Shown here piece after piece: positions 3,001-60,354 of a DNA stretch of 64,000 bases. Below the pieces are notes generated by a model, which did no database searches, was not told the DNA's origin, and saw only the letters and a program-made list of their open reading frames with translations. This stretch comes from Zygnema cylindricum (taxonomy: Eukaryota > Streptophyta > Zygnematophyceae > Zygnematales > Zygnemataceae): positions 62,001 through 126,000 of the forward strand of contig JBBHKE010001940.1 of the NCBI GenBank assembly GCA_037447655.1, written 5' to 3'. Position 1 is the stretch's first letter. Each line of letters begins with the position of its first letter. The translations under genes and the position numbers were made by a program.

Positions 3001-3600
3001 AAAGCATCTAATTTGAAGTAATGTTTCTACTGTAATAGCACCTGGATAATTTGCAGCAGTCAGAACATTGTGTGGTTAAATCGTTAACGTCTTGTTAATG
3101 AATGCTAATACAACGATCATTTCAGCATAGGTGAATAGTCACCCAGCCTTTATCACTTTCAACTTCTTATAATTGAGTTTCTTTTATTGCCGGGGCCTGT
3201 TTAGAACTTTGTTTTTTTGGTGCTTGCAAACCAGAATTGAACCCAATTTCTGGCCAAAGCTTCTGTTCGTGCTGCTCTTAAGCATGACGTTTTCAATTTA
3301 TCATCTTCCAAGTTTTCTTGTCAAGAAGGCGTGACGATAGTCTTTCTTTTGAATGGTTATTGAATGGAGAGAGGTGCGTCACTCACATCTGTGAGTCTTC
3401 CGTCCAAATTTATACAAGGTTTATGTTCTTACGAATTCATTGAAATCTCTTACATAATTTTTTGTTTTTTTTTCGCAGATTCCCCGTTGAATACTCATGT
3501 CAATTCGTCTTCTGGAAGTGCCTCTGACCTGTTCTCTCAAAACAGTGGAGATGATTCGGATGATGAGGCAAAAAAAAATGATTTGCCTGACATCGATATA
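1..3600 (+). repeat. Tandem segmental duplication of exon plus intron, period about 1.9-2.2 kb
   Basis: Exons and flanking introns repeat in order. Intron sequence after the donor at 401 is near-identical to that after the donor at 2589, including the shared tracts around 466-640 and 2655-2835. The distance between donors is 2188 bp, but 209 bp of this is a MITE plus its extra TA, present only in the first copy. The distance between acceptors is 1928 bp. The last unit lacks the 3' module and ends in a stop codon. Confidence 0.75.
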
Positions 3601-4104
3601 GATGTTCCATCACCACAGGTTAGAGAGACTTTTAAACCAGAGTCAGTAGGAGAAAAATATGGCGAAAGTGAAGGAGAAAACGATGGAGAAAGTGATGGAG
3701 AAAGGGAAGGAGAAAATGAAGGAGAAAGCGAAGGAGAGGGGGGAGCAGAAAGGAACAGCGAAAACGACGTAGGAAGAGATAGAAGAAGGGATGGTATTGC
3801 TGAGTTTGATTCTGTGGTATCAGATGTGCAAAGTATTGAAATATTACTTGACAAAGACATGGATAAGGATGATTTGCAGGAAAAAGATGATCCTATAATA
3901 GCTGAAGTTCAGAGTTTGATTACAGATGATAGGAAAAGCAGCTGCAATTCACACGTTGAAGGTGGTGGCAAGTGTGATCTACAGGACGATGGAGGTTCAT
4001 CGATAGAAGCCTTGAAGGTTCAGAATAATGCAGAAACAGTGAAGATTGCTGACAACGACCCGGCTGTGGTGCTCGCTGAGTCTAGCGGTCATGATGAACT
4101 GTAA
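1..4104 (+). CDS. Acidic Glu/Ser/Gly-rich repeat protein, 3' exons only
   Basis: I do not recognise this family. Three exons are visible: one running in from the left edge to 400 (donor GTAAGT at 401), 1551-2588 (acceptor TTTTGCAG, donor GTAAGT), and 3479-4104 (acceptor TTTCGCAG, stop TAA). All junctions are phase 1, and the middle exon is exactly 346 codons, so it can be duplicated without changing frame. The exons are paralogous: the left-edge exon matches the 3' half of the middle exon (shared GNFGALNTSSETTFN), and the last exon matches its 5' part (shared DVPSPQVRET). Each middle/last exon holds a low-complexity stretch of GE/GEREGE repeats (about 1780-1935 and 3640-3790) that is probably disordered. 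No catalytic domain, signal peptide or membrane segment is seen. The 5' end of the gene lies outside the window. The gene converges on the minus-strand gene ending at 5189. Exon calls are firm; function is unknown. Confidence 0.7.
637..843. mobile_element. TA-flanked MITE, CACCG family (207 bp)
   Basis: Terminal inverted repeats start CACCGTGTATCGCTATTAGT at the left and end with its near reverse complement at the right. A TA dinucleotide sits on each side (635-636 and 844-845). The paralogous intron near 2832-2845 lacks the element and reads straight across the site, which gives an empty-site control inside the window. The ends extend inward (a Ty-like coding capacity is absent; a second inverted pair is seen around 690 and 785). 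TA target use suggests mobilisation by a Tc1/mariner-type transposase, but the transposase family is an inference. Confidence 0.8.
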
Positions 4105-5188
4105 AAATGATTTACAAATTTCCGATACTTGTGTACTTTACGAATGCTAAGCGTTTACTAGCTGTTTTTGTGCATGCGTTGGTTTACATTTTTTCATTGT
4201 TTAACTTGTTTTTATTATTGAATATATAATTTTCAGAAATGATGAAGCAATATTTCAGTCAATATTCAAGTCAGCACCTGGAATAAAATGGCAATGAACT
4301 GTAACAGACAGCTTCATTGATTACTCTTATGAATATCACACAAAATTGTGAATGATGACAAAATCCATACACAAAATGTAACCATCAACATGGCAACCAT
4401 GCCGATAACAATGCGAATTTATTAATCAGCGATTACCATCACAGTGAGGAATGACATATTTTCAGGGCCCACACAGCTCCAAACCAATCAAAATTCCTGA
4501 AACATCCATGGCACCAATTTGTTTTGTCAAAATGATGCGTTAATGACTTACACCTTATCCACACTGGTCAAGAGAACAGTATCCTCGGTGTTTCCTTGCT
4601 GAGACCTCTAAACAGGATGTACTTATCTAAACATGATTTACTTACCCACTAAGGTGGCACCCGCCTAATAATATATATTCTGGTGCCTTTTCCTTCTGCA
4701 ACTTATGGCAGAAGAAGTTCAGGCATTTTTTTTCCAACTGTACATTCCAGTATGCATAACCTGCTTAGCGATCAGAACCTGATTAACATCTCCTTAAGTC
4801 CCATTACGCTATTCAGTAAAGAAATATGAAATGTACTCTAGCAAAGAAAACCATAATCGTTCTTGAGACGAGGATCTACTTTGGCTTACGCCAATTCCTT
4901 GACCACATGATAGACGATACTCTCTGAAAAATCACTTTCACACAAATTCGCCACTCAGAAAAACAAAGCCAGAAGACAATGCCTCGAAAACAAAACACAT
5001 TGCCAACTGCAACGTGAAGAGTTCCAGAGACAATGGAAAAAAACAGCCCCGAAAGAATGAATAACTATGAACGGGAGCACGTTCTACATCGAGCCACAGT
5101 TACACACTTCAAATGCCTAACCAGCTAGTTTGGCTTTAGTTTGCCAAAATGAAAGAAGAGAGAAAAAAGAAAGTATAGTTTTCATCTT
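4105..5188. other. Convergent intergenic region, no gene seen
   Basis: This lies between two convergent genes and holds their 3' untranslated regions. An AATAAA poly(A)-like signal for the plus-strand gene is at 4282-4287. No further open frame or repeat could be supported. Confidence 0.6.
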
Positions 5189-28000: not shown

Positions 28001-29640
28001 CGTCAATCACACGATGTTTATTTTGGACGTCCCGGATTGTTTGACGAAATTTGAGGAGTTTCGTTGAGTGACTCAGCATGACCGAGCATACGATTTTGTG
28101 AGATTGCCTGTACTTTGTAAACATTTACAACAATGGTTTGTCTTTTGTGTATTAGTTATTAGTGTAGATTTATTCATTCTGGCATACCTCGAAGTATTCG
28201 GGTATACTAACATTAATAGAGGTAGCTTGTAGATTTCGTACGGCTGGTATGCTTCCGTACACTGAGTAATGAGCTCTAGTATATAATTGTAGGATATAGT
28301 CATTTTTGCACAAAAAAAAAGGAACTTTTCTGTACCAAAAACTGTTTATGGGCATTTTCGGTAATTTTATCTGAGGATTGCTATCAGATCTGCCAGCAGA
28401 ATTATCTGAAATTCTGTATGTGAGTTCCTCTTTGTATTGTTAATGTTGTCATAGATTTGCAGGCCTATTGTGTACCTGGTCTGTGTTTTATTTCGTTGTG
28501 AAGTTAGTCTGTTTTATCAAAGTTCTGGCAGACTGTTTTTCTGCAACTTTGACTAGATGATGTGATCACTCTATTTATTATATTTGTCTGAAACTTTGTG
28601 AGGTTATTCTATAGCCTAGATAATATCTTTTAATGTAGTTTTATATTGCTTTGTTATTTCTTTAGAATTCTGTGTTGATTCAAAGTAGGCTGTTTTTGGG
28701 TAGTCTGTGGTGCTTCCGAGGGTGAATCCATGGCTAGAAATGGCTATGGACAACAAATATGACTACTCTTCCTTCAGTTCCCTTAATGAATTCACGAAGG
28801 ATTCACCACAAGTTCCAGCTCAGGCGGAACAAACTGTTACACCACAGGTTGCGGATCAGCAAAGACAGTCAAATCGGAGACTGCAGACAATTTCAGCCTC
28901 AGAATTTCCGGGGGGAAAGAGATCTAGCAGCCGTCTGCAAGCAGGCTCACACTTTGCTTTTTCTGCAGCTACAGAGGAGCCTCTAACAATTCAAGAGGCC
29001 TTTTCATCACCTGAGAGAAATCATTGGATCGAGGCGGCGAACGATGAAATGAAATCTATTATGGAGGCACAAACGTGGGAGTTGGTGGATCTTCCTCCAG
29101 GCAGAAAAGCCATCGGCAGCAAATGGCTATTCAAGGTGAAGTTGAACCCGGACAACACAATTGAAAGGTATAATGCCAGACTAGTGGCCAAGGGGTATAA
29201 TAAAAAAGAAGGTATTGATTTTGAAGAAACATTCCCTCTAGTTGTTAGATTTCCTACTGTCAAAATCTTTATAAGTCTAACGGCTATAAAAAATATGGAA
29301 ATACAACAAATGGATGTTAAAACTGCTTTCTTGCATGGAGAATTAGAAGAGACCATCAACATGAAACAACCTAATATGTATGTAGAAAAAAGAAAGGAGA
29401 AATTTGTGTGCAAACTGATAAAATCTTTGTATGGGCTGAAACAAGCCCCCAAACAATGGAATTTGAAGTTAGATGAGTTTTTGACTAGGCTAGGTTTTAA
29501 GAGAATTAGCTCAGATCATTCTGTAGATGTTCTACACGGGGAGGATGGGAAAATTTATATTGCTGTATATGTGGATGATCTATTATTAATAAGTAAGTCA
29601 ATGGATGTCAAGCTAATGTGCTTTTCAGACATACCTTTAT
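25068..29640 (+). pseudogene. Decayed Ty1/copia retrotransposon, gag to reverse transcriptase
   Basis: Gag-like sequence starts near 25074. A zinc knuckle near 25805-25860 keeps CFYCFEKGH but lacks the last Cys. A protease-like segment (MDMGASAHM, about 26080) follows, then a GAG-pre-integrase HKRLGHMNYDSLKKM (about 26480), integrase core pieces (26620-27290), and reverse transcriptase from about 28980 with SLYGLKQAP and the catalytic YVDDLL (about 29565). Stops and frameshifts break it many times, and it ends abruptly just after the YVDD motif with no RNase H. A 1.3-kb block (about 27450-28750) interrupts the linker between integrase and reverse transcriptase. No LTR pair or primer site was found. 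It cannot be active. Confidence 0.85.
27450..28750. mobile_element. Insertion in the copia element, type unresolved
   Basis: The copia reading frame stops near 27450 and resumes near 28750. The block is GTACG-rich at the left and T-rich, LTR-like at the right. Its last 55 bases or so (from GTAGTCTGTGGTGCTTCCGA to GGCTATGGACAAC) recur at 32973-33026, so this is the terminus of a repeated element. No coding capacity is seen. Confidence 0.5.
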
Positions 29641-30620
29641 ATCACCAAGGATTTTCGGCCCCTTTTTACCCTGTACGGTCTTCAGAGTACAGCGGAGGGA
29701 GTGCACCTAGCTGGACAAGATCCTTTTATTTCCTAAACTGAGCGGAACCCACTTTATTTCGGGTCTAACTGAGGCCGAATGACCAAGTTCTACCGTTTGA
29801 AAGATTGCAATTTCGTTACATGGGACCAGTTTCCGACAGCCTCCGTGGGGGGTACATTGTGAATTTTCACGCAACTTTCCGGATTTGCATCTAGATTATG
29901 CTGTTAGCCGTCAGTAGGAAGTTAGCTCAGGCTCAGCTAACTTTTGGTCTATTAATTACGTTAGGTCAAAGTCTGGCAAGTAAGTGTCCTATTCAAGACA
30001 TTGTTTTATAATAGTGGACCAAATAATTACTTCGGGCCGCGGATCTAGCCGCAGTCCGGAGCAGAAATTTTTGGCCCGAGTGTAGTACGGATTATTTTGT
30101 CTTATGTTAGTTCCATTACACTAGTTTGTCGCTCATTGGTTAATAGCGTAGCTTTGACTTTTGGACCTGCAATTTGACAAACTTTGATGTATAAGGCACT
30201 TGGGGTCAAAGGAGACATGTTGCTTTTTAGTACTGTCTCCTAAGAAAACCCTCAGAAATTCCAACAAACCTTCTTTTGGAGAATCTTTGTAATGTTTTGA
30301 CTCTATTGCCATCTTGGTTTTGGATCTGTCTTTTGTGGAAATCAAAGTCCAGGCGGGTAGTTGGCACTATCTTCCTTTAGGGTGATTTTGGACTTTTTGT
30401 TGTTTGGAACCGAGAAGAGTCTGGTCGTTTCCAAGCTGCGGACACCGAAGGTTGCAGGAGTACCATACCTTTTGACGATACTATTGGGAGAGGGGTCGCC
30501 TTTTTCTAATTGTCATCGTTGATTGCTGGGGTATGTTTAGCTTGCTTCGCTACATTTTGTATTTTCTATTTTTTATTCTCTTTTCTAGGGCAAGGTTATA
30601 TTGTTAAATCTGGAAAGCCA

Positions 30621-33963: not shown

Positions 33964-35318
33964 TCAATTCTCAGTGACTACGACAAGTATGAGAACTGCA
34001 AGACTCAAAAAGGTAGAATACAAAATATCACTTTTCAACTCTCCCCTTATTATCTGGTCTATCTTTTCTTTCAGTCCAAACTTCTCCCTACAAAATTTTA
34101 ATTTGGGAGAAGGAACCGGCTTAGTCATCATATCTGCTACCATCTCTCCATCCGGTCTATATTCCAAACTAATTATTTTATTCTCAACCTTCTCTCTAAC
34201 AAAGCTCAAACGAATATCCATATGCTTTGCTTTAAAGTGATGCTTAGGGTTTGCTGCAATTGCAATTGCAGCTTGATTGTCACAAAATACTTTTTGCACT
34301 CCGCTCTTCATATATCCCAATTCTTGAAGCAAAGATTTTACCCACATCAATTATTTCACAGCCGAACACGAGGCCATATACTCAGCCTTCATGGTGGACT
34401 GAGCAATCACCTTTTGTTGCTTACTGCTCCAACAGCAAGCCCTATTCCCAACATACAACACATACCCAGAAGAACACCTCCTCATCGGAGCATCCCCATA
34501 ACTAGCATCACTCGAAGTGGTGATGTCAGGATTATCCCCTCCCAAATGCAACCATAGATCTCTTGTTCTTATCAAGTACCGCATGAATCTTTTGGCCGCT
34601 TCCCTATCTTTCTTCTTAGGATCATTCAGACTCCTACTTAATACTCCCACGGTTGCAGCTATATCAAGACGAGTACAGTTCATAAAGAATATCAAACTAC
34701 CGACAACCTGTCTGTATGGAATAGTTTGCATGAACTTGCTTTCCTCAGGTCCTAGCTCATTATCCAAGATCAAGATTCCCTCTTCTGAGCTCCCCTCATT
34801 TCCCTTCTTTAAGTCCATTAGAGTCGTACAACTGTTTGCTTTTTCCATTTGAAATTTTTCAAGCATATTCCCAATTGCTTCCTTTTGAGTTAGTATAATT
34901 GTTTTCTTTTCTCTATCCCTCTCCATTTTATTTCCCAAGATGTACTTTGCCTCTCCCAAATCTTTCATTTCAAATCTACCTTTTATATCCTTTTTCAATC
35001 TATTAATTTTCTCCATTGATTTACTCAAAACAAGCAAATCATCAACATATATGGCAATGAAAATTATACCTTTCTCGTCCTCAAAGAAGTAGATAGAATG
35101 ATCCGAACTGATTCGAATGTATCCCAAACTCGTTAAAAACTCGTCCAGCTTTTTTTTCCATTGGCGTGGAGCTTGCTTTAGTCCATAAAGGGACTTTATC
35201 TATCTGCACACCTTGCTTTCCTCTCCTTTCTCCACAAATCCTTCCAGTTGTCGCATGAAGATCTCTTCTTCAAATTCTTCGTGTAAGAAAGCGGTTTTTG
35301 CCCATCCTGGAATATAAT
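33964..35318 (-). pseudogene. Copia pol fragment: reverse transcriptase to RNase H
   Basis: On the minus strand the sequence begins inside reverse transcriptase (KTAFLHEEFEEEIFM), crosses SLYGLKQAP (after a stop near 35203), has an intact YVDDLLVLSKS (about 35045), the connection segment (YRQVVGSLIFF), and RNase H with SSDASYGDAPMRRCSSGYVLY and EYMASCSAVK. After a stop at about 34350 it continues with VFCDNQAAIAIAANP, HMDIR and ADMMTKP. Gag, protease and integrase are missing. Its reverse transcriptase is clearly different from that of the copy at 25068-29640, so it is not simply the other half of that element. Confidence 0.85.
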
Positions 35319-38245: not shown

Positions 38246-38646
38246 TCAAACTTTTGTCGTTTTTTGCGGTCGAGGATTGCTACTGCTTATACCTCCAAGA
38301 GCTTTTCTTTTACTACTGTCTGTCTCCTCCATAGTTTGCATTTTCTTTAATGAACTTAGAAAAGATGAACCCATTTTTACACCTTCGTTGTTTACTGAAT
38401 TCTTTGAAAAGGGGTTTACTCCCTTTGAGAAATTTTTTTTTGCCTTCGAGAACGGGTTTGAAGTCTTCACAACAACTCCACCCTTTTGCTCCTGTCCTCC
38501 CTCTCCCTCCTCTCCGTCGAATCTCTCCTCTTCTCCCTCTCTCCCATTTTCTCTCTCGATCGATTTTGTCGCAGTTCTTTGCCCTGTAACTTGCCTTTGT
38601 TGCGATTTTGGTTCCCCAAAAATCCCTCTACTTTCTTGCGGTACTT
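38246..38646 (-). CDS. Orphan terminal exon of a nuclear-type protein, truncated by copia LTR
   Basis: An open frame on the minus strand ends in TGA after RPQKTTKV. It is Lys/Ser/Gly-rich with an acidic Glu/Gly stretch (REGEEERFDGEEGEGG), two related motifs TSNPFSKAKKNFSKG and VNPFSKNSVN, and a basic tail suited to a nuclear localisation signal. I do not recognise it with confidence. The upstream end is cut at about 38646, where sequence of the copia LTR begins, so the first residues of the frame (MHSSME) come from the LTR. It may be the last exon of a host gene that the element damaged. A short motif near 38500 and its low complexity also allow a purely fortuitous frame. Confidence 0.4.
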
Positions 38647-39047
38647 CCATTGAAGAGTGCACAGTTAGCTAGGGACATACTTTGTCGCTACACTAAGTTT
38701 TGCTTGTCTTATCTTGTTGTCTCTTAGTGCAGGGTAACGAGTATATATAGGCAGCAGTGTACATGTGCAGTGTATTAATTAATCAACCAATTAATCATAG
38801 AGGACTAATCTTGGAGTAGAGATTATTTAAAGAGAAGAGAGAAGAGAGAGAAGAGAGAAGATAGATGATGATAGAGGCTTCGGCCAAGAACACTTATAAA
38901 TCTTTTTGGCTGAATATTCCTCTTGTCTTTTATGAGCTTCCGCTGTGTAATGATTTATGTTTTGTGAATTATTTTAAGTGAAACTCTTTTGCTTAAGATC
39001 CTACAATTGGTATCGGAGCTAGTGCTTCGGAGATAGAGAGAGAGCGC

Positions 39048-42000
39048 ATGGGGAGGAAGAAGAATAAAAATACTCCTTCCCCCATGTCAACTTCGGAGAG
39101 AGCAAAAGAGTTCAGTTTTTCGGGTTCTCAATTTGAGGAGACCCGGAATACGGAGAGAAAATTTGAGGAGATGTTTGATACATTAATGAGATATGTAGAT
39201 TCACGATTTCCAACTCAATATAGTGAGAAAAGAGAATTTGCTTCATTTCAGGCTGCCGATCCATTCAGTGGAGGAGCTAATGAGAGTGAGATAAAAGAGA
39301 GAATTAGGAAAGGTAAAGCAAAGATAGAGGAAGATTCAGATTTTGAAGAGGCATTGGATAATGAAGATGATTATAATATGTCGGGGAAATCCGTGGCCTT
39401 TAATGGCACCAATTATGCGGTTTGGAAGAAATTTATTTCAAATCAACTTATTCTCAAGAGGCTTTGAAGGATTGTCAATGGAGAGGAGAAGATGCCAACA
39501 GAGAGCAAAGCACGTGCTCAATGGAGGTTGAAGGATATTGCGGCAACGACCGGTTTGATGAAGAATTGCACTTCTTCCGTGCTCGATCATTTTCTCGCTC
39601 ACAGCACGGCCCGTGAGTGTTGGCAAGCACTTGAGGAGCAATATGAGAAAGGCGTTGAGAACAAAGGTCAATATGTTTATACGGATTTTATGAATTTTAA
39701 AATCAAGTCAAATGAATTGATGGATGATGCCGTGAAGCGCTTCAATATTATACTCGAGCAATTACTCAACAATGGCCGAGTTATTTTGGATGCGGATAAA
39801 TTAAGCGTGTTTCTTAACGCTTTGCCGGAGAAGCTTTCGCATCTTAAAGCTATTTTACGAGCGAAGGCGGATAATACTTTCGGATTCACCGTTAATTTTA
39901 TCAAAATGTTGGAGGGAACTCCATCGGCTTCTTCAAGTGGAGGAGGAGGAGTTCTCAACTCTACTACTCCCGAAACCCCTGATCTTAACCTTGCCGGTGG
40001 TAGAGGAGGTGGTAGAGGAGGTGGCCCGAGAGGTGGTGGTGGCGGCCGAGGCAACAAGAGGGAGCAAGGTCGTCCACCGAAGGTCCCTTCGGATCTTTCG
40101 AATGTCACATGCTACCGGTGTAACCGGCTTGGACATTTGTCTTCATCTTGTCCGGATAAGGATAAGCAATGTCATTTTTGCGGTAAGTGAGGGCATACGA
40201 TCCCTCAATGTTATGCAAAGAGTGGAGATTCTAGAAGTGGAAGAGGTGGTAGAGGAATTGATAGAGGCGCTCGAGGTGGCGGCCGAGGAGGACGCCGCAG
40301 TGGTGTTCGTGGTTATGGTAATGCAAATTACTTTGACTATGGTAATGAAACCGGTGATGAGTTTCCGGTCCTTAACCTTACCCTTGATTCGGTAAGTAGT
40401 GGAGGAAATTTGGAGAAAGAGTGGATCATTGATACGGGGGCATCTCACCATGTTTGCACGGATGCTACCTTGTTTGATGACATGAGGGAACTTACGGTTC
40501 CAAAGTTTATTACGGTTGCAAGCGGCCATGTCATTTCGGTTGGTACGGTTGGCACGGTTCGGCTTGATCTTCTTTCATGGGATGATGATGGGAAAGAGAG
40601 ATCCACGGAGTATCGTCTTCAAAATACTCTTTACATTCCGGACGGTTCGGTCAATTTGTTAAGCGTTCCACAAATCCAAAAGAGTGGTGGAAGCTTACTT
40701 GCGAGAGGTGATCAATCTATCAAGATTTGGAATGAAAAGGGGAATGTAATTGGAGAAGGAGTTGTAACGGATGCAAATCATAGTCGGCTCTTATGGAGGA
40801 GGCCAAAATCTAAAGTTCTCACCGAGGGAATTTCACATCAAATTTCGGAGTTGAAAGGTGATCTTACCTTATGGCATCATCGAATGTGTCACACATCCGA
40901 GGTAAGTTTGAAGAAGATGATTCGTCATTCTTCGGTGAGGGGTTTGGACCTCGCATCCGGTGAGAAGGTGAACGGATGCGGAGGATGTAGCAAAGGACGT
41001 CAAATTCGGAAATCCCATCCGAATAAAGACATCAAGCATCGAGCTCAAAGTCCTTTGGAGGTTGTTCACATCGATCTTTGTCGACATATTAAACCAAAGA
41101 CAATTGGAGGTAATAAGTATACTTTGGTAATTGTTGATGACTTCTCTCGGAAGTCATGGGTGTATTTATTGAAAAAGAAATCGGATGGATTTGAAAAATT
41201 TAAAGAATGGCATGTGATGGCCGAAAGGCAAATTGATAAGAAGCTTAAGTCCATTCGTTCAGACAATGGAGGGGAGTTTGTTGTTTTTGAGGGGTATTGT
41301 AAGGAGTGGGGGGATAAGGCATCAATTCACGGTGCCTTATTCTCCGGAGTCAAATGGAGTGGCCGAGAGGAAGAATCGTACCTTACAAGAAATGGTCTGT
41401 GAGATGGTTCATAGCTCCGGACGAGAGATGTTTTTGTGGGGAGATGCGATTCTTACGGCGAATTATATTTGTAACCGAAGACTCACTTCGGTTTCCGGAT
41501 GTTAAACACCAGAGGAGTTATGGAGTGGTAGAAAACCCACGGTTCATCATTTGAGAATTTGGGGATGTCATGCTATGGTTTATGTGGAATCAATTAAGAG
41601 GAAGGGGAAATTTGCTCCAAGGTGTTGGCCGGGAATTTTTGTTGGTTATAGCGCAAAGGGGAATTTGTATCGTGTGTATGATCCGGCTTGTCACAGCGTG
41701 GAGGAATCTCAGAATGTGGATTTTCATGAGGATCTCAAATCCGCCATAAATTCTGTTGGGAAATTTAAGGAAAATTTGGATTTTTATGAGGAGAGTGAAA
41801 TTGAGAATTTTCCGTTCATTGAGGATTCGGAATCCGATGTGAAACCAAATGAGAAAATAAAAAAAAAAATTTGAAGAAATTGGTTGAAGTAAAATTTGAA
41901 AGAAAGAGTAACGGATCTTTGGATTCCCGAGTGCCTTCGAACATTCGGAAATCTCAAAGCTCTAAATCGAGTTCTAAATCGAGTGAGAAGGAAATTGAAA

Positions 42001-43730
42001 TTGAATCCGAGGAAGAGAAAGAGGAAAAGGAGGAGGAGCAAGTTATTAGGAGGAGCTCTCGGATTACAAAGGGGAAGAAACCGGAGAAACTCACTTACGA
42101 TCGAAAAGGGGAAAATGCATCAAATTCGCATTATTTTCTTTCCGTGCTAAGGAGACGGAGTTTCTTTTGTAGCAATTACTTACGGAGAATATGACCGGCG
42201 ACCCTCAATCTTATATCGAGGCTAGGAGGTCGATTGATTGGGAGAGTAAGTGGAAACCGGCGTGGGAGAAATAATTTAAGTCGGTGGTTGATAATCGAAC
42301 TTTTGAGGAAGTGAAATTACCGGAGGGGAAAAAGGCGATTGATGCAAAGTGGGTCTTTAAAACCAAAACTAGAGCGTCGGGTGAAATAATTAAGTACAAG
42401 GCGAGGCTTGTGTGTAAGGGGTTCCAACAACGTGAGGGAATCGATTTTAAGGAGACTTATGCTCTCGTGGTGAAGTTTGACTCACTACGGATTATTATTG
42501 CAATTGCAGCGATGGGGAACAAGCACGTCCATCAAATGGATGTTGAAACCGCGTTTTTAAATTGTGAGTTGGAGGAAGAGGTATATATAAAGGTGACGGA
42601 AGGTGTCTCTCCTTTGCAAGAAGGAAATGTATGGCGTTTGCAAAAATCATTATATGGTTTGAAACAAGCACCATGCACTTGGTATTTGAGACTTCATCAA
42701 GTACTATGAAGTTTGGATTTGTACGAACTACGTCCGATTCTAGAGTTTATGTGAAAGGTGAAGGAGTTGACCAAATCATCTTTTCTGTTTATGTGGATGA
42801 TTTCTTGATGGCATGCGACAAGTAGGAACGCATTAATGAGTTCAAACATTATCTTGGATTACATTTCAAAGTAACGGATCTTGGAGAGGTACAATATATT
42901 TTGGGGATTAAAGTGATACGTGACAAGGAGGGGAACATTAAATTGAGTCAAGCTCAATATTGTAAGGAGATTTTGGAGAGATTTGGTATGTGTGACGCGA
43001 AACCCTTTTCTACACCGTTGGATGCAAACCTACACATTCGTAAGTTTGAAGAGGAGGATTCTATCGACGGACCATATTGAGAGGCGGTTGGTTCACTTAT
43101 GTACCTTAGCGTTGGTACTCGTCCAGATATTTTGGCCACGGTTTCCATTGTCAGTCGTTATTGTCATGAGCCAAAGAAGGCACACTGGGAGGCCGTACGA
43201 CGTATCTTTCGATACTTGGTTGGTACGATTGATCTTGGACTTTTGTTTACTTCTAACAAAATTTATTTGGAGTGTGTTGGGTATTGTGACGCGGATTGGG
43301 GCGGCGACTTTGATTCGAGTAAGTCCACGTCAGGATACGCATTTATTTTTGGAGGAGCTGCGATCTCGTGGAGTTTTAGGCTACAACCTAGGGTTGCGTT
43401 AAGTTCCACAGAATCTGAGTATATGGCTGCGTGTCATGCATCTAAAGCATCGATTTGGATTAAGGAGATGTTACGTGAGTTAAGTATTCCTATTGGTTAT
43501 ATGACGATTTATTCTGATAGCATGAGTTCTATGGCGTTTGCGAAAAATCATGTGTTTCACAAGAGGACGAAACACATCAGGATCTAATGGCATTTTGTAA
43601 GAGATTTGGTAACAGCAAACGAGATTGTATTTTCATACATTCCAACAAAAGAATAGGCGGCTGATTTGTTGACAAAGGCTGCCACACATGATGTGTTTGA
43701 GAGGGGGCGACCGAAACTTGGATTATTTTG
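39048..43730 (+). pseudogene. Copia gag-pol, frameshifted
   Basis: Gag starts at ATG 39048 and shifts frame near 39465. Two zinc knuckles follow a Gly/Arg-rich tract (CYRCNRLGHLSSSC about 40110; CHFCGK then a TGA before GHTIPQC at 40188). Protease WIIDTGASHHVC is at about 40422. The GAG-pre-integrase zinc region LWHHRMCHTS is at about 40870. The integrase core has VVHIDLC (41065) and RSDNGGEF (41258), with a frameshift near 41340 and a stop at 41503. Reverse transcriptase: FKTKTRASGEIIKYKARLVC (42358), a frameshift near 42700, then YVDDFLM (42790) followed by a stop. RNase H: YCDADWGGD (43283) and STESEYMAAC (43407). Domain order PR-INT-RT-RH is that of copia. At least six lesions make it inactive. 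Confidence 0.92.
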
Positions 43731-43764
43731 AAGAGTTTGGCGATTCCAACAATAAGAGGGGGAT

Positions 43765-44437
43765 TGTTGGGATATTGTCGTTTTCGCGACATTTCGCGAA
43801 GCGTCATTCCAACTTGAATTTGTTTGACGCGAATTGTCGCGTCATCATACAAAAGTACGACATCGTTTCGCGACTGTACTTTTGATGTCCGCGAACGAAA
43901 CATACTATTTTGTTTTGCGTCACTTGTTTATTTCGTGCGCAAGTGTTACATTTTGCGTGCAGGTGTGTTCGTGAAGCGACACGTGTTTAAGTCAACATTT
44001 TGGAGTTTGTTGTTTTGAAGGAAGAAGCGTGTGCGCCTTCCTTCGTGGAACTTTCATTGAAGAGTGCACAGTCAGCTAGGGACAGACTTCGTTGCTACGC
44101 TAAGTTCTGCTTGTCTTATCTTGTTGTCTCTTAGTGCACAGTAGCGAGCATATATAGGCAGCAGTGTACATGTGCAGAGTATCCATAGAATTAATCGTAA
44201 TCTATCAATTGTATCTTACATGATTGAATCATAGAGGATTTGATATTGGAGTAAGAGATTATTTAAAGAGGATAGAGAAGAGAGAGAAGAGAGAAGAGAG
44301 ATGATGTAAAGAGGCTTCGGCCAAGAACACTTATAATTCTTTTTGGCTGAATATTCCTCTTGTCTTTTATGAGCTTCCGCTGTGTAATGATTTATGTTTT
44401 GTGAATTATTTCAAGTGAAACTCTTTTGCTTAGATCC
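43765..44437 (+). repeat. Copia 3' LTR
   Basis: Starts TGTTGGGATATTGTCG straight after the polypurine tract. The right end stops at GCTTAGATCC and runs at once into a GGAGAGAGAT repeat. A TATATA motif near 44151 probably marks the promoter. Confidence 0.88.
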
Positions 44438-44652
44438 TTGGAGAGAGATGGAGAGAGATGGAGAGATGGAGAGAGATAGATGGAGAGATGGAGAGAAATG
44501 GAGAGAGATGGAGAGAGATGGAGAGAGATGGAGAGAGATGGAGAGAGATGGAGAGAGATGGAGAGAGATGGAGAGAGAAAGAGAGAGATTGAGAGAGATG
44601 GAGAGAGAGAGATGGAGAGAGAGAGATGGAGAAAGAGAGATGGAGAAAGAGA

Positions 44653-45329: not shown

Positions 45330-46575
45330 CGATAACGTATATATATCTTTTTTGACCTACCGATAACTGATGTATTAATTCAATATATCGATAAGGAAAC
45401 AATTGCGATACGTTGCCGGTAGAATGTACCAATTTTTTCAAAAATATAAATATCGCGATAATTGACTAGGCTCTTGAATAAGCTCTCCCATGTTATCCTC
45501 CTCTCCACCTATGCTGCTTGGTTTTTCTTGAAAATCTATAAGAAGATATATGAAGATATTTTTCACGTTAGAAGTTGTTGACCATTTTTGAAAATTCTTA
45601 GGGTTTGGAGCATGAAATTTCAAAAGGTTAGAAAATAGAAAAAAAAAATGCTCTACTTAATGGTCACGGATTGCTGGACTGAAAATGCTAATGGTTTGAT
45701 TTTCAAAAAGAAAAAAATTATTCTGTTCGTTTTTGCTAAATTTTGATCTTGTACTTCTGGTTTTATAGAGTAAAACTTTTTTGTAAGAGTAAATAAGTGC
45801 GGCGCAGTCCGGATTTTTGCGTACTTACGAACCGAATATTGATACGTAATATGACATACTATAAACCATATATAGAATAATACTATAGACTATATGCAGT
45901 AGAGTATTACATTTTTTACAATACTAAAGTAAAACAATATTAAAAATCTACATATATTGGCGATAACAAATTGTGTCGGAGCTATATATCGGCCCCCATT
46001 GTTGTTCAATAATAAATAGTGTTGTTCAATAACAAATAATGTCGATAACTGGAGTTTTTGAGTTAGGACATTTCTGATACAAAACAATTTCTAAAATGCA
46101 CGTGTATTTCACTTTAGAGATCGTACTTGTACGGCTTTGCGAGAGAAAATACTGTACGACCTTTGAGCCCGAGGTGTTCGCGCTACAAACAAAATTATGG
46201 AATGTGGGAGAGGAGCAACCGACACGGAAGAGGCTGTGGGCGGCCAGGTGTCAGCAACTAGTGTGAATGGCCGTCCAGGTGAATATGTAGAGACGATCAC
46301 AACTCGCGCGTGCCGGCCATCAAAAGCGGTCGTCCGCTAGACGGTCAAGTTGGGATCTACTGGTTTGTCCACGTCTGCAAAAAGCGTTGTACAGCGTGGC
46401 AAGTCTTGATAAACGATCTTCGGTACATCAGCCCAGTTTTTATGGTCATTGGAAATGTTCGAAAACTTGTGCAAACGCTATAATCTGGTAACCTCGTATT
46501 ATATGCGTATCGTGTGTGTTTCCAACAATAATCCGCATTTAGTTTTTGAATTTTTGATGCATGATTGCAAGGACG
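45330..46575. repeat. Dispersed repeat X, copy 1
   Basis: From ATATCTTTTTTGACCTAC to the tract with GATGCATGATT it is collinear with 48525-50425. It keeps the empty site (AAGTGCGGCGCAGTCC at about 45796) for the solo LTR present in copy 2. The right part (46100-46460) is GC-richer and exon-like on the minus strand but has stop codons here. Confidence 0.75.

Positions 46576-48477: not shown

Positions 48478-48530
<53 letters not shown>
48478..48530. repeat. (AT)n microsatellite
   Basis: About 26 AT units beside the assembly gap. It joins directly to repeat X copy 2. Confidence 0.95.
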
Positions 48531-48532
<2 letters not shown>

Positions 48533-50425
48533 TTTTTGACCTACTGATAATTGATGTATTAGTTCAATATATCGGTAAGGAAACAATTGGGATAAGTTGC
48601 CGATACAATGTCCTTATTTTTTCAAAAATATAAATATCGCGATAATTGACTAGGCTCTTGAATAAGCTCTCCCATGTTATCCTCCTCTCCACCTATGCTG
48701 CTTGATTTTTCTTGAAAATCTATAAGAAGATAAGAAAATCTATAAGAAGATGTTTTTCACGTTAGAAGTTGTTGACTATTTCTAAAAATTCTTATGGTTT
48801 GGATCATGGAATTTCAAAAGGTTAGAAAATAGAAAAAAAAAATGCTCTACTTAGTGATCACGGTTTGCTGAACTGAAAATGCTAATGGTTTGCTTTTCAA
48901 AAAGTCAAAAAACATTCTGTTCGTTTTTGCTAAATTTTGATCTTGTACTTCAGGTCTTGTAGAGTAAGACTTTTTTGTAAGTGTAAATAAGTGCTGCGTG
49001 AAAGGATCGATAACACAATCGGAATGCGCAAAAAATTGACAAAATTGCACAATGCGGAAGCGAATTTAACTCACATCAAATATCAACCAGCTCACATTAC
49101 AAACATTAATTTATCATGAACATAGATAGACACATTACATAATTCACAAGAGGAATTTACATTAATTCACATATATTAACTCTACAATAATATCTCCTTA
49201 ATTTCTCTTTAGTGGTTTCTTAGTTGTTACGTAATCCCTCACAAGCTGGCATTTTAACTAAGTCGCCATATTACATCTAGAAATCTAATTCTAGAAGCGT
49301 CACATGTACTTAGACGCAAAATAGAGTACGACGCAAACTGAAAATTCGTGAAACGAAATATCTAGAAGAACCGTACTTAAAGTATAACGTAATTTACACG
49401 AAACGAAACTTCTAGACGTACACGCACGAACCGAAAGTACTAGAAGTCCCGCATACAAACGAAAAAGGACCAAACGTTCACACTTAATCAAACGAAACTA
49501 AAAGTACTAATGAAACGAAACAAAATGCGCGACGTGACGCGCGACAAAACTGACCCACACTAAAAAAGGAATCAACATTGAAAAAATCCCACATTGCAAT
49601 CCTAACACTGCGCAGTCCTGATTTTTGCTTACTTACGAACTGAATTGTGATACGTGATATGACTTACTGTAAACCATATACAGAATAATACTATAGACTA
49701 TATGCAGTAGAATATTACATTGTTTACAGTACTAAAGTAAAGCAATATTATAAATCTACATATATTGGCGATAACAAATCGTGTCGGAGCTATATATCGG
49801 CCCCCATTGCTGTTCAACAATAAATATTGTTGTTCAATAATATATAATGTCGATAACTGGAGTTTTCGAGTTAGGAAATTTCTGATACACAACAATTTCT
49901 AAAATGCAGGCGTACTTCACTTTAGAGATCGTACTTATCATTCACTGCAATGACACGGCGAACGATCCCATGTGGTGTACGGCTTTGCGAGAGAAAATAC
50001 TGTACGGCCTTTGAGCCCGAGGTGTCCGCGCTACAAACAAAATTCTGGAATGTGGGAGAGGAGCGACCGACACGGAAGAGGCTGTGGGCGGCCAGGTGTC
50101 AGCAACTGGTGTGAACGGCCGTCCGGGTGAATCTGTAGAGACGATGACGACTCGCGAGTGCCCGGCCATCAAAAGCGGCCGTCCGATAGACGGTCAAGTT
50201 GGGATCTACTGGTTTGTCCACGTCTGCAAAAAGCGTTGTCCAGCGTGGCAAGTCCTGATAAACGATCTCCGGTCCATCAGCCCAGTTTTTATGGTCATTG
50301 GAAATGTGCGAAAACCTGTGCAAACGCTATAATCTGGTAACCTCGTATTATATGCGTATCGTGTGTGTTTCCAGCAATATCCGCATTTAGTTTTCGCACT
50401 TTTGATGCATGATTTCAAGGACGTT
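48525..50425. repeat. Dispersed repeat X, copy 2
   Basis: Collinear with 45330-46575 except for a 609-bp solo LTR plus its duplicated CTGCG, and about 45 bp near 49938-49980 absent from copy 1. On the minus strand 50323-50099 is open and reads like an exon (DLPRWTTLFADVDKP, VYRTAAFDGRALASRHRLY). I do not recognise the protein. Confidence 0.75.
48999..49607 (-). mobile_element. Solo copia-type LTR with target duplication
   Basis: On the minus strand it starts TGTTAGGATTGC and ends CCTTTCA. CTGCG flanks it on both sides (48994-48998 and 49608-49612). Repeat X copy 1 carries the uninterrupted site. The interior was removed by LTR-LTR recombination, as is usual for plant solo LTRs. Confidence 0.9.
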
Positions 50426-51091: not shown

Positions 51092-51549
51092 ATGTCTGTC
51101 TCTCTATGGTCTTCAGCGGCCGTTTTCGTTTTTGTTCTTCAAATGATTCTGCCGTCTTCTGTGAGTTTCCATGGATTTAAAAATTAGCGCTGGAAAGTAA
51201 ACTAGAATTACAAAAAAATTACATTGAATATTGAACCAGAAACGATTTACATTAATTAAGGCATACGTTTTTATAGGCAATATACCAAGATAAAAAGGTG
51301 TAATATCCGCTTGCTACCTTGTCATTGTAAGATCTTCTCCGGAAGCATTCCCGTTCCTTACTAAATAAAATTAATCCCATTTGTATGCGAATACTTTACT
51401 TGTGTTTGTAGGAAGCATGTGCGATTATGGGAAAAGTCTATTGCTGTTGGATTGGCACGTGAAGCCGGTCCAATACGGGGTAGAATATGGAAATATCCAT
51501 ACTCGAGCCGCCCGTAATAAATGGGTACGGACCCGCCAGTCTCAACATC

Positions 51550-51621
51550 GAGCTGGTGGCACAGTGGTAGTGCGTTCGCAGCTGAAGTGAAAGGTCCCAG
51601 GTTCGAACCCTGGCCGGCTCA
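51550..51621 (+). tRNA. tRNA-like cloverleaf in the 5' LTR of the TRIM
   Basis: All four stems pair: acceptor GAGCTGG/CCGGCTC (one G-T), D stem GCAC/GTGC, anticodon stem TTCGC/GTGAA (one G-T), T stem CCAGG/CCTGG with loop TTCGAAC, and discriminator A. The A box is TGGCACAGTGG (51557-51567) and the B box GGTTCGAACCC (51600-51610). TTTT at 51623-51626 would end Pol III transcription. The anticodon loop is AGCTGAA. It lacks the invariant U33 (G instead), with CTG in anticodon position, so decoding is doubtful. More likely a tRNA-derived promoter or RNA module than a working tRNA. Confidence 0.8.
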
Positions 51622-51835
51622 ATTTTCCCAAGTGTGGGACATGCCGAATCCCGGATTTCTAGGAAATCTAACATGGTATCGGAGCCAGCGGGATTGCGGA
51701 TGGTTTGACCGGCTTTCCCGTGAGGGGGGGTGTTGGATTGGCACGTGAAGCCGGTCCAATACGGGGTAGAATATGGAAATATCCATACTCGAGCCGCCCG
51801 TAATAAATGGGTACGGACCCGCCAGTCTCAACATC

Positions 51836-51907
51836 GAGCTGGTGGCACAGTGGTAGTGCGTTCGCAGCTGAAGTGAAAGGTCCCAGGTTCGAACCCTGGC
51901 CGGCTCA
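51836..51907 (+). tRNA. tRNA-like cloverleaf in the 3' LTR of the TRIM
   Basis: Same 72-nt cloverleaf as at 51550-51621, displaced by 286 bp, with the same A box, B box, U33 change and following TTTT. Pol III transcription from here would stop inside the LTR. Confidence 0.8.
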
Positions 51908-52615
51908 ATTTTCCCAAGTGTGGGACATGCCGAATCCCGGATTTCTAGGAAATCTAACAATTGCAACCGATGTTGGGAAGCTCGAGAAGATTCCAAGTTC
52001 CATGAGCCTATCAGTTGGACCAAGGTATGTTGTACGGACACATGTTGGTGCGATACAAATTTATTCGTGCATGTCAGTCCAAGAAATTTAACAAAAAGCT
52101 TTCCTAGGTCACCCGGGAAACGAACAACACGAGAAAAAACTTTAATGAAAGCACTACAAGTCAAGATTTTACCGTGGAGAATTGCGACCGAGACAGCTGT
52201 CAGTTTCTAGCAGGAATCTTTGCATAGGTGCAATGTAGAAACCATGGAGAACCCGAGTATCAACATTGAATAGGAAAGATACCTGAATTGAGGAAAATTA
52301 GGAACGCCCTAAATTTGCCAAAAACGTAACCTGAGATTATTAAAAAGCGTCTTCTTCAATTTGTTTTATTTTATCTATGTGCAGGTAACTGTGAACTGCT
52401 CGGTAAAAAGCAACACGAAGTCTTCTTTCATAGTGGTCACCGGCAGAAGCGTTGGGGATGGCAGCTTCAAGGTAGGAAGAACTCCAAAATAGTTTAAATA
52501 AGGGAAAATGGCGGCAGAAATTGTGACGAAAAACGATGACACTTGAGGTTTTGAAAATCGATTTGGGAGTCAATGTACAAGATAGAAATCGTCAATGCAA
52601 ATAAAACACCACCGC

Positions 52616-52815: not shown

Positions 52816-55260
52816 ATCAACGAAGTAATGGTGGAACAAAATATAGACGACTATGTTAATATCAGAAAAAAAAGTCGCTAAATTTCAGCAAGTGGTCGTG
52901 ACGTTGCGATTGATTTTTCCATGCCAATCACACACCTGGTTATTTATTTACATGTTCCTGGTTTTGCTGCTGTTTTTAAATCCCACAGATTTTCCTTGAT
53001 GACAAAACAAAATTCACATTCTTGAATACACTTTATGCTTTCGGCAATCCCATCCGAGGACTGCAGCAAGGAGGAGGTGTCACCAGCTGTACAGTGACAA
53101 TAGACAGCAAAGATTGTGAAATGCAAACATTCAATGATGGGAGATGCAGTGAAGGAGGAAAGAGGGTAATTCAACAAACTTACTTTTGACTGTCGGTATT
53201 TTGATTCCCTGGTTCCATTCAAAATTAAGAAGGGAAAATCAAATGTCTGGCATGACTTTATTTATGCAAGTGATGCGTGATGGAGTGCTGGTCGTTTTGA
53301 AACAGCCTTTTCCTTTCCGGTGCACACTTATCGTAGCTATATAGCCTTCAAACTAACCTCCCCGTCTCAACTTCACAGGGTAACGGACGGAGTAACGACA
53401 TCGATCTTGTAAACATCGGGTTCGAATCATCGGATATCCGCATCAACGGCGAGATTTGTAACTCTCCTTCCAAACGGCCCGCCATCTGCTCAAACCCTTC
53501 TCCTCCTCCACCAAAAAAATCCCCCCCACCCCCTCCACCTCCGGTCTCTTCCCCACCTCCTCCACCTACATTATCCTCTCCTCCGCCTCCAGTCTCTTCT
53601 CCACCTCCTCCACCTACATTATCTTCTCCTCCGCCCCCAGTCGCTTCACCACCACCTCCAGTCTCTTCCCCACCTTCCCCAACTACAAATCCCTCTCCTA
53701 CTTCTTCACCACCGCCTCCAGCTGGAGCCACTGGGGACCCTCACTTCACTGGGGCGGACGGTTCACGTTTCGACTTCTCAGGTGAATGTTGTTGGCCAAT
53801 GAAACCCATTGAAATAGGATAAATAAAATAATAGATTTACCCATTGATGAAGTTCAATCGGTTTGTTTTTTTTTTTGGAGAAGTGACACAATTTCTATAA
53901 TATACAAAGTATTGCACAGAGGATTCAAAATAATTACCAAAATGTATTCAAGTCAAATTTCTTTGAACCGATGTAGATTTTAACATTTAGATTATGAGAT
54001 AAATAATGAGAAGACATTTCATATGTTTCCAGGTGAACCAAACAAAACGTTTTGTTTGATTAGCGATGCACACATCCATGTGAACGCGTATTACGGCGGC
54101 CGATACGAGAGTAGTGGAAACGACATGCACAAATCTCTCACATGGATCCGGAAAATTAGCATCCTATGGGGACATCATACCATTGTTGTGGGCGCACGCG
54201 AAGGCGCAAAATGGGAATACGACAACGGATATCTGGCGAGCGTAGAAGTTGACGGCGAACCTGTCAAACTCAGACAAGTGGGAGATTTTGTCTCGCGTGT
54301 TGACAGAAAGCTGGAAATTCGGTGGGTCGGCGCAAAAGTACGGAGCGCCGACGATTTAATCGACGTCTACCAAGTGACAATCGCAGACATTTAGAAACTG
54401 CGACTGATGATTCGCCCCGAAATCGCTTTACTGCGAACGGCAACGGACGGCCTTGTCCATATAGATTTTGAGCTCCCATTGCTCGATGTCTCCAATAGCG
54501 TGCATGGCATCCTGGGCCAAACCTACCGCGCCGACCATAAGACCAGACTGTAAGGCATCTGCGTCTTTCGTTATTGCAATTTTTTTTTTTTTTTTTTTTG
54601 GAATTAGCGCTGTCTAGTATTGTGAATGTGAATTTGATGCAACTGTTCTGTACCGAACCTATGAAACACTGAAGTTTGTAAAGCAGCTGATCATTTGATT
54701 ATTTCATTATTATTTTTTTGACTGCGAAAACTGGAAATTGCAGGCTTCTTGCCTTTGTAGCAAGTTATTCCTTTGTATTTAAATTACTGAAATAGGGCTA
54801 GCTACAAGTGTGTTTTTACACAAAAGAAATTTACGCATGTTGACTGTAAAGACCTGTGGGTGGAATTGATGATAAATGCATGCTTTTCAATCATTCTTAT
54901 GTCAGCCTTTGTTTTTTTCTATTCTATGCCTCAAATGTGGGGCATTGATTTTAACTCACTTCTATTTTCGCCATAATGGCCTATTGCAGGTCAACACAAA
55001 AGCTGGAATGGAGTGATCTTCTGAAAGCGAATGTGGTTCCTGGCGACGATGCGGAAGGTTTCCTCGATGGGAGCGTGTCCGATTATGTTTCCTCCGGTTT
55101 GCTTCATACTAATTGTCTCTATTCACGGTTTGCTAGGGAATACAGGCGAGACGAGGAAAGGTCTCAAGCCATTGAGATAACGACAACTCAAGTCATCAAC
55201 ACAAACAACATTATCAACAGCAAAGTGACATCTAGTTGCAAGTTGCTGACGTATTCATGA

Positions 55261-58766: not shown

Positions 58767-59338
58767 GGCTGCCTTCTTTTCTTTTTTGGAGCTCTGAGGC
58801 GGAGAAGTAAAAAGAAAAGGAGAGGCAGAGAGGGGCAGAGAGGGGGGAAGGGAGGGGGAGAGTGAGAATTCAGATGCAAATGAGGAGGAGAGGGGGAAAT
58901 TTATAGGTGGGAAGCGAGGGAATTGGGAGGGTAGTGAGAGTGGATATTCCAAAACGCGTTATTTGGGAAAAAGTGGATTTCCGAAGGTGGGATTTTGATT
59001 TTCCTGTGATTTACGGCGAAACGGCCTCGCGAACAAGGATTGTACGGATTATAATAAACTGTGAGTTTGGCACGTGCGATTTGGAGAGTGTTAGATCTAT
59101 GCTCGTGACTCGTCTACCGCGTCATTTATTATTCGATAGTACAAAAAGTACAAAATGTACGGTACGTAGTGGTCTTTTCATGCGGATTGGGTATGGATTC
59201 GTTTTCATTTTTTGGATCGAATTTTTTGTCGTTTTCTTGTGTGGTAAACACTTCCATTTGATGCAGTTTTCGTTTTTCCTCACTCACGAAAAAAGTACTC
59301 ACTGTTGTTTCCGTGTACGGTCACTGTACGAATTAGAA
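58767..59338. promoter_or_regulatory. Upstream region of the proline-rich protein gene
   Basis: The first 150 bases upstream are GA-rich on the plus strand, hence a CT-rich leader. TTTATAGG at 58899 reads CCTATAAA on the minus strand, a good TATA box about 135 bases before the ATG. Confidence 0.5.
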
Positions 59339-60354
59339 ATTAGGTGATGTCAAGAACCACTGAGTGTCAGCAAATCTTTGACCAGATTTGAATCCGGATT
59401 TTCGTTTTATACTCCCGCCAAAAAGAGATATTATTCCGAATACCGTCAATGCATGCACATTAAAGTTTTAAATGATACGAGGAACTTTGGAATGGGACAA
59501 AGGAAGATACCAGATTCCCTTTGGCATGGTGTGGAGGGCGGCTGATTTTGTCAGTCCATCTGAATGTACCTTTTTAACGAGATTACGAGGCCTTTTTGGT
59601 CTAGATTCTTTTCCCCTCACACACACTTCCACTAAATACCCTCTACATAAACAAAGAACAAATACAAGTAGAAGCAATACTAAACATAATCACTTAACTA
59701 AAGATGACCAGGTTCACGCAAAGATGCGCCGGCCATAGTCTACAGCTCCTGAAGCAAACTCAAGCTAACCTTCCAGAATTCTCTCTCTGTAAGCCGAAAC
59801 AGAATGTGGCAGAATCGATGCAGTATCGTTGCAGTTATCGGCCGTACAAAAGTCCTACTGCTTCGCCGTACACATTGAATATTTCGGTGAAGCGAATCGC
59901 GTCGCACTTCGCCAACATTGAATCAAATCGCTAAACGTCCGATTCACTTGAAAACATCAAGTACCGAAAGTACAGTACCGAAACGTACACAAATAAAGTA
60001 CTAACGAAACAAACATAGAACCGAACCAAGACATTAAACGGCGCGATTTCGGCAGACGCCGATTCGCCCAATATCCTAACAATTAGGTGGTGTCAAGAAC
60101 CACTGAGTGTCAGCAATCTTTGACCAGATTTGAATCCGGATTTTCGTTTTATTACTCCCGCCAAAAAGAGATATTATTCCGAATACCGTCAATGCATGCA
60201 CATTAAAGTTTTAAATGATACGAGGAACTTTGGAATGGGACAAAGGAAGATACCAGATTCCCTTTGGCATGGTGTGGAGGGCGGCTGATTTTGTCAGTCC
60301 ATCTGAATGTACCTTTTTAACGAGATTACGAGGCCTTTTTGGTCTAGATTCTTT
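59339..60354. repeat. 273-bp direct repeats flanking an LTR-like segment
   Basis: 59339-59611 and 60082-60354 are near-identical (a few single-base differences). Both begin ATTAGGTG and end TCTAGATTCTTT. The ends are not TG/CA, so they are not ordinary LTRs. Each contains GATTTGAATCCGGA, the reverse complement of a tRNA B-box-like motif. Confidence 0.8.
59612..60081 (-). mobile_element. Copia-type LTR fragment
   Basis: On the minus strand it starts TGTTAGGATATTGGGCG, like the LTRs at 43765 and 48999, and has the GTACTTTCGGTAC-rich texture of those LTRs. Its other end (GTGTGAGGGGAA) lacks the expected CA, so it is truncated or the limit is misplaced. Confidence 0.5.

Follow-up and report, generated by a model that had tools for sequence, protein, structure and literature searches.

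A young miniature LTR retrotransposon of probable Helenus type, with a tRNA-derived module in both LTRs, in the alga Zygnema cylindricum

The window, the whole stretch of 64,000 nucleotides of Zygnema cylindricum DNA that was analysed, contains a 515-bp element at 51445-51959. Two plus-strand LTRs of 229 bp each, the 5′ LTR at 51445-51673 and the 3′ LTR at 51731-51959, are identical at 229/229 positions and enclose an internal domain of 57 bp (51674-51730, plus strand). The LTRs have TG...CA ends, the termini of the element read TGTTGG...TAACA, and the target-site duplication ATTGC, which has no strand, lies on both sides (51440-51444 on the left, 51960-51964 on the right). A primer-binding site of initiator tRNA-Met type, TGGTATCGGAGC (51674-51685, plus strand), starts at the base directly after the 5′ LTR and differs at 1 of 12 bases from TGGTATCAGAGC, the plant primer-site consensus (PMC7215508). 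A G-rich polypurine tract, GTGAGGGGGGG (51720-51730, plus strand, with the purine run from 51722), finishes at the final base before the 3′ LTR. As a bare 12-mer the primer site is within chance, with 2 matches at up to one mismatch in the 64 kb against 0.61 expected, and at least 2 in 13 of 100 shuffles; its exact placement after the LTR is what counts. The preliminary description of this locus had named each of these parts, and their positions bear it out, with the single variant base in the primer site as a refinement. The bounds are those of a normal LTR retrotransposon integrated by integrase. The identity of the LTRs marks the insertion as recent; their divergence would, by the rule of three, be below about 1.3%.

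No stop-to-stop open reading frame of at least 150 aa lies wholly within the element; a 195-aa stop-to-stop frame on the minus strand crosses the element into the flank. BLAST found no second copy of the element within the 64-kb window. Folded at full length, the LTR has more structure than shuffled sequences do (z = −4.17, with 0 of 200 shuffles as good). A 12-base inverted repeat (92%) joins the interior at 51704-51715 to U3 at 51748-51759 and would place the polypurine tract in a hairpin loop; a competing hairpin of 12 bp lies where the LTR begins.

About 1.4 kb downstream, at 53337-54391, lies a gene resembling those of plant root-cap proteins, one exon of which is proline-rich. Its homologues carry PF06830 in 22 of 27 cases. 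Sixteen of the 27 are named to taxon, 15 from Closterium and one from Mesotaenium (identifier prefix Mesen1), both Zygnematophyceae; the other 11 comprise four transcriptome proteins and seven metagenome or sequence-archive entries that carry no taxon name, and the best homologue, at 64% identity, is one of those seven. The named homologues point to a streptophyte alga, probably a zygnematophyte, as host. Against this, the homologue search reaches only relatives sharing exact words, so that missing land-plant matches are weak evidence, and the second exon alone matches no Pfam family at E 0.001. Several repeats lie elsewhere in the window. The copies of one direct repeat, about 275 bp long (59338-59611 and 60081-60354), are 98.9% identical, lie about 470 bp apart and have no TG...CA ends. 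A gene-sized tandem duplicate (132-2264 and 2341-4118) has pieces that are 69-83% alike and open reading frames encoding acidic, low-complexity proteins. A pair of repeats, of 0.5 and 0.8 kb and 89-91% alike, recurs at 45338-46575 and 48522-50423 with its order kept and its spacing changed. At about 48.1-48.6 kb, the translation of an open reading frame contains an X run, and the window seems to have a few undetermined bases there, beside a TA-rich simple repeat.

Each LTR contains a 72-nt tRNA-like cloverleaf on the plus strand, at 51550-51621 in the 5′ LTR, with CTG at the anticodon position, and at 51836-51907 in the 3′ LTR. The preliminary description had proposed a tRNA-detection check on the LTR, and this gave a positive answer by two routes: ARAGORN calls tRNA-Gln(ctg) in both LTRs, and both cloverleaves match the Rfam family RF00005 over the full model length, scoring 53.6 bits where the gathering score is 29 (E = 9.9e-9 over the whole window and all Rfam families). 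RF00005 is the only family with a match to the element at E values of 1 or lower. A Cassandra or 5S element was rejected, there being no 5S rRNA match in the element within the same limit. The stems, previously described as fully paired, are paired at 7/7, 4/4, 5/5 and 5/5 positions, two of the pairs being G-U. ARAGORN made no tRNA call in 5000 dinucleotide-shuffled LTRs and did call the real one. The 72-nt fold taken alone is ordinary for its composition (z = −0.66, with 48 of 200 shuffles as good), and the outstanding feature of the module is its tRNA pattern rather than its fold energy.

The module has the parts of a Pol III gene. Box A, TGGCACAGTGG (51557-51567, plus strand), and box B, GGTTCGAACCC (51600-51610, plus strand), have 32 bp between them, and both agree with the consensus. 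The two cloverleaves are the sole matches in the window to an A-box/B-box pattern that was composed after the sequence had been seen, and 0 of 100 shuffles match it. A TTTT run, a putative short Pol III terminator, begins two bases past each cloverleaf, at 51623-51626 in the 5′ LTR and at 51909-51912 in the 3′ LTR (both plus strand), the latter being where the genomic RNA is proposed to end. The good boxes and terminator of the preliminary description are thus present. There are no T4 runs in the element beyond those starting at 51623 and 51909. Their absence elsewhere is unremarkable against shuffles, since exactly one T4 occurred in 1806 of 5000 shuffled units and none in 2926; among 429 stretches of 12 bases sampled in the neighbourhood, 38 contained T4.

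Additional evidence concerns the sequence upstream of the module. A TATA-like motif, TAATAAAT, which contains AATAAA, lies at 51515-51522 (plus strand; −35 to −28 of the module), with its 3′ LTR counterpart from 51801; a promoter role for it is suggested by plant tRNA genes. A CAA, a putative Pol III start context, lies at 51543-51545 (plus strand; −7 to −5), with its counterpart from 51829. These two motifs were picked after the sequence was seen, and shuffled U3s carry a TATA-like motif at the same place in 176 of 5000 cases, CAA within the final ten bases in 652, and both together in 26. Flowering-plant tRNA genes, as described in PMC11700998, have an upstream TATA motif in about 22-32% of cases, CAA within the final ten bases in 36-45%, and a T run of at least 4 within 50 bases in 67-72%, with a mean of about 5; CAA is there given as a common plant Pol III start context. 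The CAA at −7, the TATA-like motif at −35 and the T4 two bases after the module plausibly fit plant Pol III genes.

A group of elements already in the literature has the same design. Kojima 2024 gave the name Helenus to TRIMs with tRNA-derived LTR sequence, from a screen for elements under 1000 bp with two LTRs and no coding capacity (PMC10886601). According to that paper, Helenus occurs in Pucciniales, several Agaricomycetes, six animal phyla and one plant, Selaginella moellendorffii; together with Cassandra and Ajax it makes up TRIMp3, for which a Pol III model was proposed. The Zygnema element has the structure that defines Helenus. It is likewise a TRIM with tRNA-derived sequence in both LTRs and with a primer-binding site and polypurine tract at the ends of its interior; it has a 5-bp target duplication, as do plant and fungal Helenus, and its 515 bp fall inside the published range of 311-1263 bp (PMC10886601). 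Most members are said to have TRGCY...YGG as box A and GGTTC as box B; here GGTTC and the TGG are present, and TGGCA departs from TRGCY at its last base. The Selaginella moellendorffii element has an LTR of 120, an interior of 85 and 5-bp duplications (PMC10886601), in contrast to the LTR of 229 and interior of 57 found here, and the host is a zygnematophyte alga instead of the one plant listed.

Other known systems share part of this design. Cassandra also has a small-RNA Pol III promoter in both LTRs, a short non-coding interior and a primer site of tRNA-Met type (PMC10853983, PMC7215508), but it carries 5S rRNA instead of tRNA, and its primer site is TGGTATCAGAGC rather than TGGTATCGGAGC (PMC7215508). 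Ajax has the TRIMp3 architecture and a 5-bp target duplication, but is described from nemertean worms with a partial 5S rRNA sequence and a tRNA-Leu primer (PMC10886601). A tRNA-derived SINE (SINE2) resembles the element in its tRNA-type internal Pol III promoter and in being non-autonomous, whereas SINEs, with a tRNA head that stands alone and a LINE-type tail, are without LTRs, primer-binding site or polypurine tract and are moved by non-LTR elements; this candidate was rejected, the module sitting within LTRs with both a primer-binding site and a polypurine tract. A literature search, with most subscription journals outside its reach, showed no report of such elements beyond Kojima 2024 (PMC10886601) among the titles and abstract openings listed. 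For plant TRIMs, the main text of Gao 2016 (PMC4717578), as searched, has no word beginning with tRNA. Patterns of 23 bases each from the promoter and the interior had 0 exact matches in viral contigs, and a 30-base pattern had 0 in prokaryote genome contigs, negatives that say little because these collections may omit the element's own genome. The preliminary description had suggested a tRNA-type Pol III counterpart of Cassandra; this is the best-supported reading, but its novelty falls away, because Kojima 2024 defines Helenus and thereby had already published such a counterpart (PMC10886601).

The locus is likely to be a non-autonomous miniature LTR retrotransposon of Helenus/TRIMp3 type that inserted recently, with the tRNA-derived module as its putative promoter. 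Under this model, TFIIIC and TFIIIB would position Pol III at the CAA just before the cloverleaf of the 5′ LTR. Some transcripts would leak through the TTTT of the 5′ LTR and end at the TTTT of the 3′ LTR, giving a genomic RNA of about 365-370 nt. U3 would correspond to about LTR positions 1-100, R to the cloverleaf and on to about position 182, and U5 to the remainder. The primer would be tRNA-iMet, the repeated cloverleaf would serve the first strand transfer, and an autonomous element, probably Copia, would supply reverse transcriptase and integrase in trans. The module would be retained for its promoter boxes rather than for decoding. Helenus and Cassandra are the closest precedents thought to work likewise, according to the summary in PMC10886601; for Helenus, Pol III promotion was inferred there without validation.

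A hurdle for this model is passage of the first terminator. The preliminary description had pointed to a read-through problem, and the problem is real, given the TTTT in the 5′ LTR and a study of human Pol III in vitro in which longer T tracts gave better termination (PMC8531034). In that study, T1 and T3 were read through and T5 and T7 mostly terminated, with some read-through; T4 was absent from the templates named. Terminators of 4-5 T are common (PMC8531034, PMC11700998), this being the usual length in vertebrates (PMC8531034). By analogy, leakage of Pol III past TTTT in this alga is plausible, and with T4 confined to the terminators of the two tRNA modules, a polymerase that leaked past the first would face no further stop before the second. 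Against the model, Pol III may halt at the first TTTT and yield only a tRNA-sized RNA, and a cloverleaf folded at the RNA ends could draw RNase P and RNase Z, destroying the genomic RNA.

In an alternative, Pol II drives the genomic RNA from a conventional start in U3 and the module is a passenger, derived from a tRNA gene or SINE that inserted into an LTR and was copied to both, whose Pol III transcript is only a short side product. This alternative, though unlikely, has several points in its favour: TAATAAAT at 51515-51522 could act as a TATA box for Pol II, placing a start some 30 bp further on, most Pol III transcripts may end at the first TTTT, and RNAs started in U3 are predicted to hide the acceptor stem and so might escape tRNA processing. 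The state of the module argues in the other direction. It is nearly undamaged, at 53.6 bits with all stems paired, whereas a passenger in an error-prone copying cycle would be expected to decay, barring a recent acquisition.

Evidence on the hiding of the acceptor stem came from predicted folding of the module behind leaders of different lengths. With a 7-nt leader, the cloverleaf forms with a mean acceptor-pair probability of 0.96; this falls to 0.07 with a 15-nt leader and to below 0.01 with leaders of at least 17 nt. In the predicted folds, the loss is due to a hairpin with 51533-51543: the sequence at 51533-51559 (plus strand) is able to pair with the 5′ acceptor strand in a hairpin of 7 + 3 bp that disrupts the cloverleaf. 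Neither acceptor forms locally in the modelled genomic RNA. Shuffled leaders disrupted the acceptor as fully in 51 of 1000 cases at 30 nt and 13 of 400 at full U3 length, and brought its probability to 0.05 or lower in 255 of 1000 and 143 of 400, respectively; 196 of 5000 shuffled U3s paired as strongly as the real leader. As a designed switch, the leader hairpin would thus stand weakly above chance. Under the modelled folds, Pol III RNAs started at the module would have a clean cloverleaf, one that could be excised and spread as tRNA-like fragments, and in U3-containing RNAs and at the 3′ end of the genomic RNA the alternative hairpin could hide the acceptor stem, which could shield the genomic RNA from tRNA-processing enzymes. 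This reading as a whole, in which the cloverleaf would be an RNA device as well as a promoter, the choice of start site would set whether a tRNA-like product or a packageable genome is made, and the algae that are sister to land plants would already have had this Helenus lineage, is a long shot.

A further alternative is that the product of the module is a functional tRNA-Gln(CUG), or another working tRNA, and that the element spreads tRNA genes. The ARAGORN call in both LTRs and an Rfam score well over the gathering score speak for it. The anticodon loop, however, reads AGCTGAA and has G at position 33. tRNAs nearly always carry U33. The anticodon arm is also the least confidently aligned part of the RF00005 match. 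Working tRNAs are predicted for few Helenus families, 7 bivalve and 15 fungal, in the account given in PMC10886601. The functional-tRNA alternative is accordingly held to be highly unlikely, with G33 as the main objection, and the "complete" tRNA gene of the preliminary description stands as regards the full model match and the stems and fails in the anticodon loop. Because G replaces U33, the module is probably a promoter unit and not a decoding tRNA. That the cloverleaf arose by chance within an ordinary TRIM has a probability close to nil: the single copy seen in the 64-kb window and a 72-nt fold no stabler than shuffles are in keeping with it, but it is refuted by the 0 of 5000 shuffled LTRs with a tRNA call and by the Rfam E value.

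The model of a Helenus-type element driven in trans raises the matter of a partner, and the window contains a Copia element with LTRs at about 38631-39002 and 44037-44438. This repeat pair is 85.6% alike, and the element is old; gag, zinc-knuckle and integrase domains lie inside 38631-44438, and the coding frame is broken by stops. Its primer site at 39008-39019 is the same variant, TGGTATCGGAGC, as in the TRIM. This agreement counts in favour of the model and points to a host tRNA with the matching base or to a tolerated wobble, although two 12-mers of this type in 64 kb are within chance (13 of 100 shuffles, as above). By BLAST, the two elements have no more than about 15 bp in common, all of it at the primer site, and no match was found between their LTRs. 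This Copia was therefore set aside as a candidate for the driving partner. Among the best 120 of the 144 matches to its protein, the top one has 34% identity, the named ones are mostly from land plants and Phytophthora, and none bears a zygnematophyte name, so that this protein gave no placement of the host. Two more Copia reverse-transcriptase fragments (PF07727) lie at 28704-29741 on the plus strand and 34351-35199 on the minus strand. The genome of Z. cf. cylindricum SAG 698-1a is reported in a preprint to contain 73.3% repeats and 29.8% Copia (PMC9915684); by comparison with it, a Copia-rich window would not be out of place for Zygnematophyceae.

As a Helenus-type element, the insertion possibly reveals something new, since a zygnematophyte host would give Helenus a second plant lineage and would place tRNA-promoted TRIMs beyond vascular plants in the streptophyte line. 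LTR-borne tRNA modules of this kind would also inflate annotated tRNA gene counts, an effect shown in rust fungi (PMC10886601). Because its LTRs are identical, and the element hence young, and because its tRNA module is nearly intact, it would be a good test case for Pol III transcription of Helenus, and it bears on how a Pol III transcript may pass its own terminator to become a genome.
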